From a bacterium (GTDB taxonomy: Bacteria; Lindowbacteria; 2-12-FULL-62-27): 55,784 nt of DNA. A program made the translations under genes and the position numbers. Shown here one piece after another: positions 17,317 to 30,890 of the stretch. The stretch is taken from positions 1 to 55,784 of the forward strand of contig JACQOF010000029.1 in NCBI GenBank assembly GCA_016202645.1. Reading direction: 5' to 3'. The notes below the pieces were generated by a model that saw nothing but the letters and a program-made list of their open reading frames with translations, was not told where the DNA came from and did not search any database. Position 1 is the first letter of the stretch. Each line of letters starts with the position of its first letter.

Positions 17317-18192
17317 CTACGGTTTTTTACTGTCCCGGACCCGAACATGGGCCAGCACGGGGAAATGATCTGACGGATACCGGCCATTTTTCGAATCGGC
17401 GATCACGGTGTGAGACAGGATGTCGATGGAGCCGGTCACGAAGATGAAATCGATGGCCCGTTTGGGATCGGCGTTTTTTTTGAACCCGTTGAATGTGCCG
17501 GCCGGACCATCCGGTGGATGTTCGGAGATGTCCTGGCTGTCCCGGAGAAGCGGCGGTGTGTCTCCGTTGGCGGTCAGCGTCCGATAAGGAACAGACGTGC
17601 GATCACAGTTGAAGTCGCCAAGGAGGACAGCCGGCGCCGTCCGGGCAATTTCCCGTATTTTTCGGATCGCGAGGTCCGCGCTGCGCTTTCGGGCGGTTTT
17701 CCCCCGGTTGTCGAAATGGGTATTGAAGAAAAACCAGGCGCTGCCGGACGAACGATCCCGCAACTCCGCCCAGCGAACCAGCCTGGGCTCCTGCGCGTCC
17801 CAGCCGCGGCTTTTGCGGTCGGGTGTTTTTGACAGCCAGAAGGTTCCGCCGCGGAGCAATTCGTATCGGGCGCTCCTGTAGAGAATCGCGTTTTTGACGC
17901 CATAGAACGCGTAGTCCGGCAGGCGTTTCTTCAAGTCGCCGATCTGCCGCTTGTCGGGTTCCTGTAGACCCGCCACGTCGACCGCGTATTTTTTGAAGAT
18001 GTTTGCAACCATTTTTTTTCGATGCGGCCATGCGTTCCGGCCGTCGTTCGGGGTGTTGTAGCGGACATTGAAACTCAGAACACGGCACGCCGGCCCGTTT
18101 TGATCGGCGGCGGAAACGGACCAGGAGGCGGGAAGGACGCACGCGACGGCGATCAGCGCCAGAATGTTGAATGCCCAATACCTGCGCATCAC
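17317..18192 (-). CDS. Exported endonuclease/exonuclease/phosphatase (EEP) family protein
   Basis: 291 residues with a signal peptide (first ~29 residues). The EEP superfamily motifs are in order: LSFNVRYNTPNDGRNAW, the metal-binding Glu in AGLQEP, FNTHFDNRG, VLLGDFNCD with the catalytic Asp-x-Asn, RAIDFIFV, and the terminal SDHFPVLAHV with the Asp-His pair. The family includes nucleases, sphingomyelinases and phosphoinositide phosphatases. The secreted form and short length suggest an extracellular phosphodiesterase, but the substrate cannot be read from sequence. The gene is probably monocistronic. Confidence 0.85.
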   Translation of the reverse strand: MMRRYWAFNILALIAVACVLPASWSVSAADQNGPACRVLSFNVRYNTPNDGRNAWPHRKKMVANIFKKYAVDVAGLQEPDKRQIGDLKKRLPDYAFYGVKNAILYRSARYELLRGGTFWLSKTPDRKSRGWDAQEPRLVRWAELRDRSSGSAWFFFNTHFDNRGKTARKRSADLAIRKIREIARTAPAVLLGDFNCDRTSVPYRTLTANGDTPPLLRDSQDISEHPPDGPAGTFNGFKKNADPKRAIDFIFVTGSIDILSHTVIADSKNGRYPSDHFPVLAHVRVRDSKKP

Positions 18193-18320
18193 GTCTGCGC
18201 CGGGTGGCGGGTTCGTAGAATGGATTTTCCGTGCATGCGCCGCCCTCTCCAGTTCGGTTTAACTCAGCCTGTTAATTCGTTTGTAGCTGATTTGAAGTGG
18301 ATTTTTCAACGGCGCAGGAA

Positions 18321-18326
18321 TATAAT
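18321..18326 (+). promoter_or_regulatory. -10 box upstream of the truncated haemoglobin gene
   Basis: A perfect TATAAT lies 40 bp before the ATG. The best -35 candidate, TTGAAG at 18292-18297, is 23 bp away, which is too far. It forms an inverted repeat with TTCAA at 18305-18309, which might be an operator. Activator dependence is possible. Confidence 0.4.
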
Positions 18327-18366
18327 GCCGGCCGTGTCGGAAACATCATTGTTCAAAGGAGGCGGT

Positions 18367-18879
18367 ATGCTGCGATTGGTTGTGAGTATGGGATTGTTGT
18401 TGAGTGTTGGGTTGAGTCCATTTGCTTTTGCGCAGGAAAACGAAACCGGCGGTACGGTGGAGGCGGCTGCGGAGACGACCCCGGCGCCGGCATTGTATGA
18501 ACGGCTCGGCGGAGTTTATGCGATTGCCGCGGTGGTGGACGATTTCATCGAGCGGCTTCTCGCGAACGATACGCTGAACGCCAACCCGAAAATATCCGAG
18601 GCTCGCGTCAAGGTTCCGAAAGCCGGCCTCAAGTTTCAGGTCACGGCGCTGGTCAGCCAGGTCACCGGCGGGCCGCACACGTACGAGGGCCGGTCGATGA
18701 AGGATGCCCACGCGCATCTCGATATCACCGAATCCGAGTGGTCGGCCATGGCGGCGGACTTCAAAAAAAGTCTCGACGCCTTCAACGTCCCGGAGTCGAT
18801 GCAAAGCGAGTTGTTCGCCATCGTCGAGATGACGAAACCGGACATCGTCAAATCGGAGGGAGAAACATTGGGGAAGTAA
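18367..18879 (+). CDS. Group 1-like truncated haemoglobin with signal peptide
   Basis: 170 residues from an ATG with a strong AAAGGAGG ribosome site. An N-terminal signal peptide (VSMGLLLSVGLSPFAFAQ, cleavage near residue 20) precedes a truncated globin: LYERLGGVYAIAAVVDDFIE (helices A-B), the GGP turn followed by a Tyr, and MKDAHAHLDITESEW, in which the first His is the expected proximal haem ligand. Truncated haemoglobins bind O2 or NO and detoxify NO or scavenge oxygen. Most are cytosolic; export to the periplasm or cell surface is uncommon. It is isolated between a divergent EEP gene and the flagellin. Confidence 0.85.
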   Translation: MLRLVVSMGLLLSVGLSPFAFAQENETGGTVEAAAETTPAPALYERLGGVYAIAAVVDDFIERLLANDTLNANPKISEARVKVPKAGLKFQVTALVSQVTGGPHTYEGRSMKDAHAHLDITESEWSAMAADFKKSLDAFNVPESMQSELFAIVEMTKPDIVKSEGETLGK

Positions 18880-19018: not shown

Positions 19019-19084
19019 ATGGGAATCGCGATTCGGGCATGCCGTCCGTCCGCGCATGGGGAGGGGGGAAGTTTGCATGGCTGA
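19019..19084 (+). CDS. Possible 21-codon leader peptide overlapping the flagellin start
   Basis: An ATG preceded by the best ribosome site of the region (AAGGAGG, 9 nt upstream) opens a 21-codon frame (MGIAIRACRPSAHG..., ending LHG). Its stop, at 19082-19084, lies 5 nt inside the flagellin gene in another frame. Ribosomes finishing here could re-initiate at the flagellin ATG (19077), which also has its own GAGGGGGG site. No homology is recognised; it may also be chance. Confidence 0.3.
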   Translation: MGIAIRACRPSAHGEGGSLHG

Positions 19085-20759
19085 GGGATTCGCTGTGCAT
19101 TTCAACCCTGCTTCTCATTTCGCTCTCCGCCAAGTTTTCCTGAACGAGGCGGGGCTGTCCAAATCGCTGGAACGACTCTCATCCGGCTACCGCGTCAATC
19201 GAGCCTCCGATGACGCCGCCGGGCTTGCCGTATCCGAAAAAATGCGCGGCCAGATTCGGGGGCTTCATCAGGCCAGAAGAAACGTGCAGGACGCATTGAG
19301 TCTGATGGAGACGGCGGATGCGATGTTCACAACGACCTCCGACATCCTGCAGCGCATGCGCGAATTGATGATTCAGTCGGCCAACGGCATCTATTCAGAC
19401 AGCGACCGCGCGCTGATCCAAATCGAAATCGAACAATTAAAGCAGAGCCTGGACGAAAACGCCGGCAAGGCGGAGTTCAACGGCCATATCCTGGGGGCGC
19501 TGGAGCCGGCCAACGAGGCTCAACTTGACAAATTCGACCTCTCCGATGGATTCGACCTCACGGCGAATTACAACGATGACGGCGCGGGCGGACAATTCGA
19601 CGTCAATGCCGACGGCTCGAACGATTTCACGCAGGAGGAATTGGATTCATTCTACAAGCGCGTGATCCAAATCGTGAAAAACGCTCTGCGCGTTGCCTGG
19701 GGCCGCACTGGCCTGAGCAATGACCAGAGCTTCTCCGCGGCGCGGAGCGGCCTCACGATCGTCATTCATGAGAATTCCGCCGCGATGGGGTCGGGCGCCC
19801 TGGCCAACGCCAACGGCAGTACCATCAACATCAACCTCACCTTTTTTGACGACAACCTCAAGGACGAAAAAGCGCCCGTTGATGTGTTCAGCGCGGAGCA
19901 GGTGCTGGCGCATGAATCTACGCACGTTCTGCAATTTCGAAACGGGATGCGGAACGGAGCGTCTCCCGGCTGGCCCCTCGAAGGCGGCGCCGAATGGGGC
20001 GGCAATGCCGGCAACGCGCGCTCCGGCTTCGCCTCCCCCACGCTGGACGGGCTTGAAACACCGCTCGCCGCCGCCGCTTTCACAAGCAACGACTATTCCG
20101 AGTCGTTCCAGGCCCAGCGATATATTGTCGAAACCTATGGCGCCAAAGTCCTCTACGATTTTTACACCAACTTGTCGGATCAGCGAAACGACACGCGCGC
20201 GGAAGTCCAGGGGGCGCTTCTGTCCGCCATTCGGCAAACCGATCTCAGTGTCACGGAGTTTGACAGATTCGAGTTCAATTTCCGGAACTGGTTCAATGAA
20301 ACCGGAACGGAGAAGGCCCTGAGCCAAAGTCCCTACGGGCGGACCGTGCCGGAGGCCATCGTCAACGAAAAATTGAAAATAACAGTGGGCGCCAATTATG
20401 GACAGACCTTCGACGTGAGCACGTATCTGATGACGGTCGGCGCCCTCGATATGGTCGGATATGTGGACGCCGGCACGCAGGCGCGCGCCGAAAGCGGCAT
20501 TGCCGCGCTCGACCGGGCGCTCAATGTCGTGTCGCAGGCGCGCGCCAACCTCGGCGCCACCTTCAACCGGATCGAACGCGCGATGAATTTTCTGGACGTC
20601 GCGGAAGAGAATATGCAGGCATCGGAATCGCGAATTCGGGACACGGACATGGCCGCGGAACTCGTCAGCCTGACGCGTCAGCAGGTCCTCGCGCAGTCTG
20701 CCCAAGCCATGCTGGCCCAGGCCAACCTACAGCCGCAAAGCATCCTGACAATTCTGTGA
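19077..20759 (+). CDS. Proteolytic flagellin (flagellinolysin-like): flagellin with inserted HExxH metallopeptidase
   Basis: 560 residues. The N-terminal D0/D1 region (1-about 130) has SLERLSSGYRVNRASDDAAG and EKMRGQIRGLHQARRNVQD. The C-terminal D1/D0 region (about 480-560) has NRIERAMNFLDVAEENMQAS and RDTDMAAELVSLTRQQVL. Between them, the hypervariable part is a peptidase-like domain with HESTH at 279-283 and a WPLEGGAEW segment (299-307) supplying a candidate third zinc ligand Glu. This matches the known class of flagellins with surface-exposed gluzincin-type protease activity. The start ATG has a GAGGGGGGAAG site. The first 10 residues differ from the usual RINTN pattern. No other flagellar gene is nearby, so it may be an accessory filament subunit. 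Confidence 0.88.
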   Translation: MAEGFAVHFNPASHFALRQVFLNEAGLSKSLERLSSGYRVNRASDDAAGLAVSEKMRGQIRGLHQARRNVQDALSLMETADAMFTTTSDILQRMRELMIQSANGIYSDSDRALIQIEIEQLKQSLDENAGKAEFNGHILGALEPANEAQLDKFDLSDGFDLTANYNDDGAGGQFDVNADGSNDFTQEELDSFYKRVIQIVKNALRVAWGRTGLSNDQSFSAARSGLTIVIHENSAAMGSGALANANGSTININLTFFDDNLKDEKAPVDVFSAEQVLAHESTHVLQFRNGMRNGASPGWPLEGGAEWGGNAGNARSGFASPTLDGLETPLAAAAFTSNDYSESFQAQRYIVETYGAKVLYDFYTNLSDQRNDTRAEVQGALLSAIRQTDLSVTEFDRFEFNFRNWFNETGTEKALSQSPYGRTVPEAIVNEKLKITVGANYGQTFDVSTYLMTVGALDMVGYVDAGTQARAESGIAALDRALNVVSQARANLGATFNRIERAMNFLDVAEENMQASESRIRDTDMAAELVSLTRQQVLAQSAQAMLAQANLQPQSILTIL

Positions 20760-27948: not shown

Positions 27949-29568
27949 ATGGACGCGCGTCCGGACAAACGCTGTCCGCTCTGGGTGCCTTTGAGCGGCC
28001 TTGTACTCGCGCTCTGCCCGATCCTGATCATGCTGGTTGTGTCGCGCTCGATTTCGCCCGGTGACCGGTTCATGTGGGCCATCCAGTACGACCAATTTTA
28101 TTACGCGGCGAACGCGCGGCAGATGGCGCAAGATGGCGGGGTTGTGTATGCGAACGCGTATGACGACCGCGCGGAACCGCACAAAATATATTCGCATCTC
28201 TATCCCCTGCTCCTCAGCGTCGCGTCGAGGGTTTCCGGGATCGAGCCGGTCTATTGTGCACTTTTTTGGAGCCCGGTATTCGGCATTTTTCTGGCGCTCA
28301 GCCTCTGGATATTTCTGGGCGAGATTTTCCCGGACGGTCTCTGGCGCGCGCGTGCATTTGCCTGCCTGATGACGACGGGCGGCCTGACCGGACTCTGGGC
28401 GTTTCTGGAAACTTGCGGCGGAGTCCCGGAGGGGGCGGATTTTTTTGTTGAAGCCTTCGCCCGGCAGTTTTTTCAGAACGAAGGCACCGCGCTTGACTGG
28501 CTCTGCAGTGTCGGCCGGGTTTTCCTGATCCCGCCGGAGACGCTGTATCACGCCGTCTGGTTTGCCGCTCTTGCCGCGTATCTCAAGGGTCGTCGCGTCG
28601 CGTCGACGGCCTGGGCGGCCCTCGAAGTCTATGCGCACCCATTTACCGGTCCGGAATTGGCGCTCGTTCTGGCTGCCGCGTGCCTGGGGGACATCCTCTG
28701 CGAAAGGGATCGCCGCGGCGCTGTTCTTCAGCTCTGCGGCATGGCCGCCCTTCTCGCCGGATTCGCCGCGTATGCCTTCTGGCTCGGAACCGACAGCGTC
28801 CACAGGGCGGTACAGGAAACATGGTCGCACTTTAAGTCGCCCATTCCGCTCGATCGCTACTTTCTGATCTACGGAATCTGGCTGCCTCTGGGCGTGATGG
28901 CGGCCGTCGCCCTGCGAAAATACCTGAAAACAGATGCCGGTGTCCGGCTGATGCTGATCCAGGCGGGTGTGGTCTTCCTGCTGACCCATCATCACCTGTT
29001 TCTGGACGTCGAATTTCAGCCGGCGCATTTTTCCCGGGGATATCTCATGGCCGCGCTTGTGGTTCTGGGCTGGAAAGGTCTCCACGCGTCGCGGATCGGC
29101 CGGTTCTTCCGGCCGCGTCTGGTCGCCGCCGGCATTGCCCTCCTGTCGCTCGATACATGGCTCTACATGGTGTACGCGGCCGTGCGCGCGCAGGACCCGC
29201 CGACGACGGTGACGTCTGACCGTGCCGAAGTCATCCGGGAAATCGCGAAACTCCCGGGACGGCAGTTTGTCGCGTCCGATGCTGACATTGGATATCTCCT
29301 GCCCGTTTTTTCCGGGCACCGGGTTTTGCTCGGGCATTACGGGACGACCCCGCGTTTCGAGGAAAACCATGCGCTCTGGAGCGCCTGGCTGCTCGGCGGC
29401 AACCCTTCGGTCTTCGTGAAGTACCCGGGCCTGACCGTTCTTGTTATTCCCGTCGAGGCGCGAGGTTGGCTCAGAACACCAGTGCCCCAGATGGAGGGCT
29501 GGCGGATCGCTCTTCGGAACGCGTCGTTCCTCGTGTATCATCTGCCCCGGGCGGACGGATCGGCATGA
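27949..29568 (+). CDS. Polytopic membrane protein inside the biotin cluster (GT-C-like topology)
   Basis: 539 residues with about 10 predicted membrane helices, starting with LVLALCPILIMLVV. A long first extracytoplasmic loop contains YDQFYYAANARQMAQDGGVV, then HKIYSHLYPLLLS. The C-terminal ~110 residues are soluble (RAEVIREIAKLPGRQFV, LLGHYGTTPRFEENHALW). Many helices, an acidic first loop and a soluble C-terminal domain recall GT-C glycosyltransferases or O-antigen polymerase-like proteins, but no catalytic motif is certain. It sits between bioD (6 bp) and bioA (ATGA overlap), so it is transcribed with biotin genes. It may simply be a passenger; a transport role is not indicated by sequence. 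Confidence 0.6.
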   Translation: MDARPDKRCPLWVPLSGLVLALCPILIMLVVSRSISPGDRFMWAIQYDQFYYAANARQMAQDGGVVYANAYDDRAEPHKIYSHLYPLLLSVASRVSGIEPVYCALFWSPVFGIFLALSLWIFLGEIFPDGLWRARAFACLMTTGGLTGLWAFLETCGGVPEGADFFVEAFARQFFQNEGTALDWLCSVGRVFLIPPETLYHAVWFAALAAYLKGRRVASTAWAALEVYAHPFTGPELALVLAAACLGDILCERDRRGAVLQLCGMAALLAGFAAYAFWLGTDSVHRAVQETWSHFKSPIPLDRYFLIYGIWLPLGVMAAVALRKYLKTDAGVRLMLIQAGVVFLLTHHHLFLDVEFQPAHFSRGYLMAALVVLGWKGLHASRIGRFFRPRLVAAGIALLSLDTWLYMVYAAVRAQDPPTTVTSDRAEVIREIAKLPGRQFVASDADIGYLLPVFSGHRVLLGHYGTTPRFEENHALWSAWLLGGNPSVFVKYPGLTVLVIPVEARGWLRTPVPQMEGWRIALRNASFLVYHLPRADGSA

Positions 29569-30890
29569 GCCTTCCGAAATCCGCGGTCTGGTATCCGTTC
29601 ACCCAGATGTCCGAACCCGCGCGCGCGCCGTTTCTGTCGATCGTCCGGGGCCGTGGGAATTATTTGTATGACGCCGAAGGCCGGAAATATTTCGACGGGG
29701 TCTCGTCGCTCTGGTGCAATCTCCACGGGCACGGCGTTCCGGAACTGACCCGCGCGATCGCCCGGCAGGCGGACCGCCTGGCCCACTCGACTCTCCTGGG
29801 TCTCACGCATCCGGGGGCGGAGGATCTGGCGAAGCGGCTCACCGACATTGCCCCGCGCGGGCTCACGCGCATGTTCTATTCCGACGACGGCGCGACAGCG
29901 GCGGAAGTCGCGCTCAAGATGGCCTACCAGTTCTGGCGCCACCGCGGCGAATCCCGGCGCGATCGGTTTATTTCGTTCAAACTCGGCTATCACGGCGACA
30001 CCCTGGGCGCCGTGTCGGTCGGCGGGGTCGACCTCTTTCACTCGACCTTCCGCCCCCTGCTTTTTCGGGGCGTCAAGGTTGACCCGCCGTACTGTTACCG
30101 GTGCCCGCTGAAACTGTCCTTCCCGTCCTGCCGGTACAAATGCCTGGAGGCGGTCGAGACCGCGTTGAAAAAAAATCAGAGACGCCTCGCGGCGTTTATC
30201 CTTGAGCCGAAAGTCATCGGAGCCGGCGGCATCATCGTCCAGCCTCGCGGTTATCTCTCACGGCTGGCGAAACTCTGCCGGGCTTATCGCGTCCCGATCA
30301 TCGCGGATGAAGTCGCGACGGGCTTCGGCCGCACGGGACGGATGTTCGCCTGCGAACACGAAAACGTCCGGCCGGATTTCATGTGCGTCGCCAAGGGCCT
30401 GACGGGTGGGACCGTGCCGCTGGCCGCGACGCTGACGACCGACCGCGTCTACCGGGCGTTTCTCGGACGATACGAGGAGGCCAAAACCTTTTTCCACGGC
30501 CACACCTACACCGGCAATCCCGTCGGCTGTGCGGCAGCCCTCGCCAACCTCGACCTCTTCAAGCGCCGCCGCATCCTACAACATCTCCCTGCCAAGATCC
30601 GTTTTTTCTCCGACGAATTGGCCGCCCTCCGCAACCTCCCCCACGTCGGCGACGTCCGCCAGGCGGGTTTCATGGTCGGCGTGGAATTGGTCCGCCGCCG
30701 CGCAACCCGGGAACCTTACTCTTGGGAAGAAGGCATCGGCCGCAAGGTCTGCGCCCGGCTCCGCGCCCGCGGCATCCTCCTGCGCCCGCTGGGAAACGTC
30801 CTGGTCCTGATGCCTCCCCTGTCTTCCACCCTCGCCGAACTGCGCCGCCTCGTCCAGGAAATAAAAGGGATCATTCCCTTAGTTTGTTAG
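29565..30890 (+). CDS. bioA: Adenosylmethionine-8-amino-7-oxononanoate aminotransferase BioA
   Basis: 441 residues, class III aminotransferase. VWYPFTQMSEP, DGVSSLWCNLHGHG, YSDDGATAAEVALKMA, SFKLGYHGDTLGAVSVGG, the cofactor Asp in IIADEVATGFGRTG and the PLP lysine in CVAKGLTGG (Lys277) identify BioA. A cysteine cluster (CYRC at 177-180, then Cys189 and Cys193) is found in some BioA subfamilies. It forms 7,8-diaminononanoate using SAM as amino donor. The last six codons and the TAG stop lie inside a palindromic repeat (30871-30921), so the original C-terminus has been replaced by IIPLVC. Confidence 0.93.
   Translation: MSLPKSAVWYPFTQMSEPARAPFLSIVRGRGNYLYDAEGRKYFDGVSSLWCNLHGHGVPELTRAIARQADRLAHSTLLGLTHPGAEDLAKRLTDIAPRGLTRMFYSDDGATAAEVALKMAYQFWRHRGESRRDRFISFKLGYHGDTLGAVSVGGVDLFHSTFRPLLFRGVKVDPPYCYRCPLKLSFPSCRYKCLEAVETALKKNQRRLAAFILEPKVIGAGGIIVQPRGYLSRLAKLCRAYRVPIIADEVATGFGRTGRMFACEHENVRPDFMCVAKGLTGGTVPLAATLTTDRVYRAFLGRYEEAKTFFHGHTYTGNPVGCAAALANLDLFKRRRILQHLPAKIRFFSDELAALRNLPHVGDVRQAGFMVGVELVRRRATREPYSWEEGIGRKVCARLRARGILLRPLGNVLVLMPPLSSTLAELRRLVQEIKGIIPLVC

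Follow-up and report, generated by a model that had tools for sequence, protein, structure and literature searches.

The window, that is, the whole stretch of 55,784 nucleotides analysed here, carries at 19077..20759 (+) a gene for a flagellin that bears a protease domain. The open reading frame starts with ATG at 19077, its stop codon ends at 20759, and the product has 560 aa. The codon-position GC (0.61/0.43/0.73) in a window of 62% GC indicates a real gene, and the start at 19077 fits the length of the N-terminus in flagellins of sister genera (MGLDFSVRNN, MSEIFNVRHN). Flagellin_N (PF00669) covers residues 10-137 (E 3.6e-35) and Flagellin_C (PF00700) residues 476-560 (E 6.9e-21); both matches score well above the cut-off and span nearly the complete Pfam model, in line with the sequence-only reading that preceded this analysis, in which the N- and C-terminal filament regions were described as intact. 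The frame, coordinates, motifs and the numbering of Glu302 and Glu306 were also as given there. The insert has approximately 330 residues. The features are as follows:

19077..20759 (+): whole gene, protease-bearing flagellin, 560 aa and stop (ORF, Pfam, NCBIfam)
19077..19493 (+): N-terminal filament core, residues 1-139, Flagellin_N (Pfam; fold match)
19494..20483 (+): insert in the hypervariable region, residues 140-469 (Pfam, alignment)
19623..20351 (+): alignable peptidase domain, residues 183-425 (NF033876 match, alignment, hhalign)
19911..19925 (+): predicted zinc-binding motif HESTH, residues 279-283, with E280 as putative general base (H, E and H invariant)
19980..19982 (+): Glu302, putative third zinc ligand (alignments)
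19989..19991 (+): Ala305, equivalent of the "basement" Ala265 of FliA(H) (invariant in alignments; PMC5595980)
20094..20096 (+): Tyr340, invariant, possibly a transition-state residue (alignments)
20484..20756 (+): C-terminal filament core, residues 470-560, Flagellin_C (Pfam; fold match)

The gene upstream, at 18022-18879 (+), encodes a bacterial-type globin (Bac_globin, E 1.4e-10) with an N-terminus that by eye resembles a signal peptide, which agrees with its earlier description as an exported haemoglobin. The other neighbours examined belong to the 3-hydroxyacyl-CoA dehydrogenase, endonuclease/exonuclease/phosphatase, GFO/IDH/MocA, SAM hydroxide adenosyltransferase and cNMP-binding families. 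A search for sigma-28 and sigma-54 sites upstream of the flagellin gave a best sigma-28 score of 10/16, no better than shuffled sequences; a flagellin-like gene (L038) of the sister-genus genome G001 is preceded by a perfect sigma-28 promoter, TAAAGTTT-N11-GCCGATAA. A 21-codon ORF at 19019-19084 (+), immediately preceded by a strong AAGGAGG site, extends over the flagellin start (ATGGCTGA) in a different frame and may represent a leader peptide or a case of translational coupling. Elsewhere in the window, the gene at 29286-30887 resembles the one adjoining the vWA flagellin of G001 described below; both encode a common class-III aminotransferase.

The domain in the hypervariable region

The insert alone matches the NCBIfam flagellinolysin model NF033876 at E 4.2e-12 (46.2 bits). 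For the whole protein the score is 69.2 bits, well under the curated cut-off of 205, so we do not assign it to the curated family. The cut-off is passed by the scanned members from Pseudomonas, Psychromonas, Massilia, Sporosarcina, a Pseudomonadota bin and a Veillonellaceae bacterium; two ADurb.Bin236/UBP15-like proteins (L065, L068) gave no NCBIfam match at 1e-50. Pfam matches of the insert to M91 (18.6 bits) and eCIS_core (17.3 bits) lie below the gathering scores of 25 and 22 bits, respectively. A profile comparison with hhalign aligned the window domain with the classic flagellinolysin domains over 225 columns (98.1%, E 1.1e-13) and with the ADurb.Bin236 group at 96.8%. Profiles made from two flagellin-borne groups gave the domain 51.8 and 45.3 bits, and one made from three non-flagellin HExxH peptidases gave it 12.3 bits.

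Because the single window protein, used as a query, retrieved no confirmed relative, a domain alignment was used instead. Among 84,980 named species it found 13 relatives, all of them flagellins with an HExxH domain in the hypervariable slot, to which the window domain is 16-24% identical. Many NF033876 matches of the wide search are C-termini of ordinary flagellins or general HExxH enzymes, and its match numbers were therefore not taken as a measure of family size. A further search in the phyla of genomes G121, G152 and G271 added one new sequence (L051) and otherwise returned known ones, a small yield explained by the size of these phyla (7, 2 and 2 genomes). In domain trees that included non-flagellin peptidases, p-AU was 0.058 for the window domain with the classic group, 0.116 for the union of all flagellin domains, and 0.465, not rejected, for the window domain with the ADurb.Bin236 group. 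With these outgroups, the window domain is not firmly placed in the classic group and the flagellin domains are not all united.

In the alignment of 14 flagellins, which also covers the region around the calcium site of FliA(H) (Asp206), residues H279, E280, H283, E302, A305 and Y340 are invariant; the conservation of the first five argues against a chance occurrence of HESTH. After addition of L007, L012 and L010, the same positions stay invariant except E302, which is nearly so. The HExxH flagellin L012 (G152) has His at the position of this Glu, which may leave it with a different or an inactive metal site. The sequence-only reading offered either Glu302 or Glu306, both within the WPLEGGAEW segment (residues 299-307), as the gluzincin Glu. 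Of these, Glu302 is retained as the likely third zinc ligand, since it is conserved among the aligned HExxH flagellins, whereas Glu306 is not. In FliA(H), E302 corresponds to Glu262, the third ligand, and A305 to the basement residue Ala265 (PMC5595980); EGxAE and the Y340 block are common to the window domain and classic flagellinolysins. Departures are also present: the window domain has HEST where relatives have a nearly invariant HEM (HESTHVLQ compared to HEMTHAV), with Ser replacing Met within HExxH and Val replacing Ala at 284. The distance from HExxH to the third Glu was considered as an unusual trait and dropped, as a spacing of 19 residues also occurs in Pseudomonas members.

Over residues 5-555, the full-length structural model (mean pLDDT 57.6) resembles flagellins of known structure (Z about 19). 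This structure search was swamped by flagellins, so the domain was modelled and searched alone (280 residues, mean pLDDT 58.6, pTM 0.65; pLDDT about 71-78 around HExxH and E302). In model numbering, HExxH lies on helix 91-106, and the helix that follows (116-126) carries E302. This arrangement of a collagenase-like zincin, modelled with moderate confidence, does not refute the gluzincin site that structure prediction was meant to check. The ten best entries in VIA-align are all clostridial M9 collagenases (Z 11.3-12.3), followed at lower ranks by M30 and M1 enzymes (Z 8.6 or less) and M4 enzymes (6.3 or less). Plain Foldseek also places collagenases first, with weak E-values (best 0.014), and a sequence search of the PDB with the insert gave a chance match only. 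The insert is thus predicted to be a gluzincin with an M9-collagenase-like fold, at moderate model confidence. The proposal of a flagellinolysin-type zinc peptidase in the hypervariable region is borne out by the NF033876 E-value, the 13 flagellin relatives and the M9-like predicted fold. Judged by its sequence and fold model, the window flagellin is a divergent variant of the known protease-flagellin kind: apart from the curated score, the tests of flagellin ends, motif, domain homology and predicted fold all fit flagellinolysin.

Native flagellin frame and the flagellar genes of the genome

The ends of the window flagellin are 60/58% identical (N/C) to those of L028 of G001 and 48-60% identical to those of the other three filament flagellins compared from the sister genera G001 and G002 (L029, L030, L032), whereas the other protease-flagellins reach 26-48% at the N-terminal and 30-44% at the C-terminal end. 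In a tree of the N- and C-terminal regions it groups with the sister-genus flagellins (93/93), and L007 also falls inside this group. All three segments of the gene have 57-63% GC, close to the 62% of the window. The previously noted departure of the N-terminus from the RINTN pattern stands; it is shared by the sister-genus flagellins, which have VRHN, VRNN or VQHN. The accompanying suggestion, an accessory filament acquired separately, does not agree with the 60/58% identity of the ends to a sister-genus flagellin. As the ends are native, it seems that the domain was gained, and not an entire accessory flagellin. From these comparisons, the peptidase domain apparently entered the native flagellin by intragenic insertion or swap, and insertion into a lineage-native flagellin is one of two transfer routes proposed for flagellinolysins (PMC5595980).

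The domain search detected no peptidase domain in sister genera G001 or G002. In G001, the flagellin L030:469-1989 (-), with a frame of 507 aa, has a von Willebrand A domain (PF00092, E 2.3e-11; DxSGSM) in the same slot. A 507-aa flagellin of G002, L029:412-1932 (-), has by eye a vWA-like stretch there that lies below Pfam detection.

The genome of the window flagellin (G000; 2.9 Mb, 146 contigs, 82% complete) encodes flagellar machinery. FlhA was identified by profile search, and its cluster reads by eye FlhF, FlhA, FlhB, FliR, FliQ, FliP; FliD, three Flg_bbr_C rod/hook proteins, FliG and FliS were also found. An export gate, motor switch, hook, cap and FliS chaperone are thus present, and a genome devoid of flagellar motor genes, which would have spoken against the sequence-only reading, is not the case here. 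The remark of that reading that no flagellar gene is near also holds: the neighbours examined are non-flagellar, and six flagellar families searched genome-wide gave no further match on the window contig, the flagellar genes lying on other contigs. In the sister genera, flagellins likewise lie on contigs other than that of FlhA, and two flagellins of G001 adjoin FlgL/FlgK-like ORFs on contig C20.

The window flagellin is the only Flagellin_N match in the G000 assembly. FlgL was not found in G000 with a query that finds it in G001, and no FlgK-like match was recognised. The search for a second, canonical flagellin was thus negative in a draft assembly in which FlgK and FlgL were likewise not found; given this and the 82% completeness, "sole flagellin" is unproven. 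The claim was dropped, as a flgK-flgL-fliC stretch may be missing from the assembly. In Clostridium haemolyticum, a plain flagellin is accompanied by smaller amounts of the protease form, which makes up to 10% of the filament (PMC5595980). By analogy, the window protein would most likely co-assemble with a plain flagellin. It seems improbable that it is the only filament flagellin, giving a filament with protease throughout, and that the slot serves in this phylum as an interchangeable tool mount (protease, vWA, simpler forms).

Proposed mechanism and competing explanations

The gene very probably encodes a filament flagellin of the native lineage with a flagellinolysin-type zinc peptidase in its surface slot, for which we infer zinc binding, catalysis, assembly, substrates and the route of acquisition. 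In the proposed mechanism, H279, H283 and E302 would bind zinc and E280 would act as the general base. The protein would be exported via the flagellar type III gate with the help of FliS, and its N- and C-terminal helices would polymerise into the filament. The peptidase would then be displayed on the outer face of the filament and could cleave peptides or proteins beside the cell locally. The steps of secretion, polymerisation, surface display and local digestion are taken from the established biology of the flagellinolysin family.

It is rather unlikely that a different HExxH peptidase, be it M91, eCIS_core or some general MA-clan enzyme, gave rise to the insert by independent recruitment into a flagellin, with convergence on the flagellinolysin layout. 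Such an origin would be consistent with the sub-threshold M91 and eCIS_core matches, which among three domains scanned occur in the window protein only, with HESTHVLQ instead of HEMTHAV, and with the outgroup tree, which leaves the place of the window domain unsettled and the flagellin domains not united. However, the flagellinolysin score of 46 bits stands against 18.6 for M91 and 17.3 for eCIS_core, and the profile score of 51.8 bits against 12.3 for the non-flagellin profile, itself a small one. EGxAE and the Y340 block, both common to the classic members, and the first rank of the collagenase-type fold also argue for the flagellinolysin-type origin.

Retention of all direct zinc-ligand and general-base residues at 16-24% domain identity argues for selection on catalysis and makes a catalytically dead surface module, acting as a spacer or adhesin only, quite improbable, although the substitutions of Met by Ser in HExxH and of Ala by Val at 284, as well as the relative L012 with His for the third Glu, point in its direction. 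The arrival of the whole protease-flagellin gene from another phylum, as a separate accessory filament, is very unlikely. Its remoteness from the flagellar genes found is compatible with this explanation, as is the proposal that flagellinolysin genes can be transferred whole, one of the routes put forward in PMC5595980; however, sister-genus flagellins also lie off the FlhA contig. The identity of the ends, far closer to the sister-genus flagellin (60/58%) than to other protease-flagellins (26-48% and 30-44%), the 93/93 grouping, though shared with L007, and the GC of the three segments (57-63%), near that of the window, all count against whole-gene transfer.

Relation to known protease-flagellins

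Protease-flagellins are already known as a class; the window adds a divergent form from a very poorly sampled phylum and indicates that they reach a deep, compact and poorly sampled branch overlooked by the curated model. A clearly native flagellin frame is combined with a slot domain that varies among sister genera (protease here, vWA in G001, simpler forms), which makes it testable within one family whether the slot on the flagellin surface acts as an exchangeable functional mount. If the window protein were the organism's only flagellin, it would also put to the test whether a filament built from protease subunits alone assembles and supports swimming.

Two proteins found in the searches extend the range of architectures. 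L007:1153-4200 (+) of G271 is a single open frame in which a complete protease-flagellin is joined to a second flagellin N-terminus and then to WD40-like PD40 repeats; by its sequence it would be two flagellins in tandem, the second outer domain being propeller-like. L010:823-2004 (+) of G080 has no recognisable flagellin ends, and its frame is cut by the contig end. Its HExxH domain scores 75 bits against the flagellinolysin model (39 bits for the window flagellin in the same search), and it is possibly a stand-alone relative of the domain.

Like flagellinolysin/FlaMP, described as FliA(H) in C. haemolyticum (Eckhard et al., 2017, PMC5595980) and as HgrFlaMP in Hylemonella gracilis (PMC7643111), the window flagellin has a gluzincin between flagellin ends and shares HExxH, the third-ligand Glu and the basement Ala. 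It differs in its 69 bits against the cut-off of 205, 16-24% domain identity, HEST instead of HEM, and its origin from a poorly sampled phylum (three genomes in the set searched). It also lacks the DTGAIGGxDADGG segment of the Pseudomonadota flagellinolysins. The HExxH flagellins of the ADurb.Bin236/UBP15 lineage and DeMMO6_30 (L065, L068, L070, L074) are of similar length (about 556-562 aa) and likewise have a compact domain without DTGAIGG; the ADurb.Bin236 group is a possible sister group of the window domain in the trees (p-AU 0.465). However, these proteins have WGQExxA in place of WPLEGGAE, and their ends are just 30-43% identical to those of the window flagellin. L030 (G001, vWA) and L029 (G002) have the same flagellin frame (ends 48-60% identical) and a large domain in the slot. 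Clostridial collagenase, the nearest structural relative of flagellinolysin (Eckhard et al., PMC5595980), is also that of the window domain model. The M9 collagenases ColH (4ar1), ColT (4ar8) and ColG (2y50) match its fold with Z 11.3-12.3, at 14-16% identity in the structural alignment, and are not carried within a flagellin.
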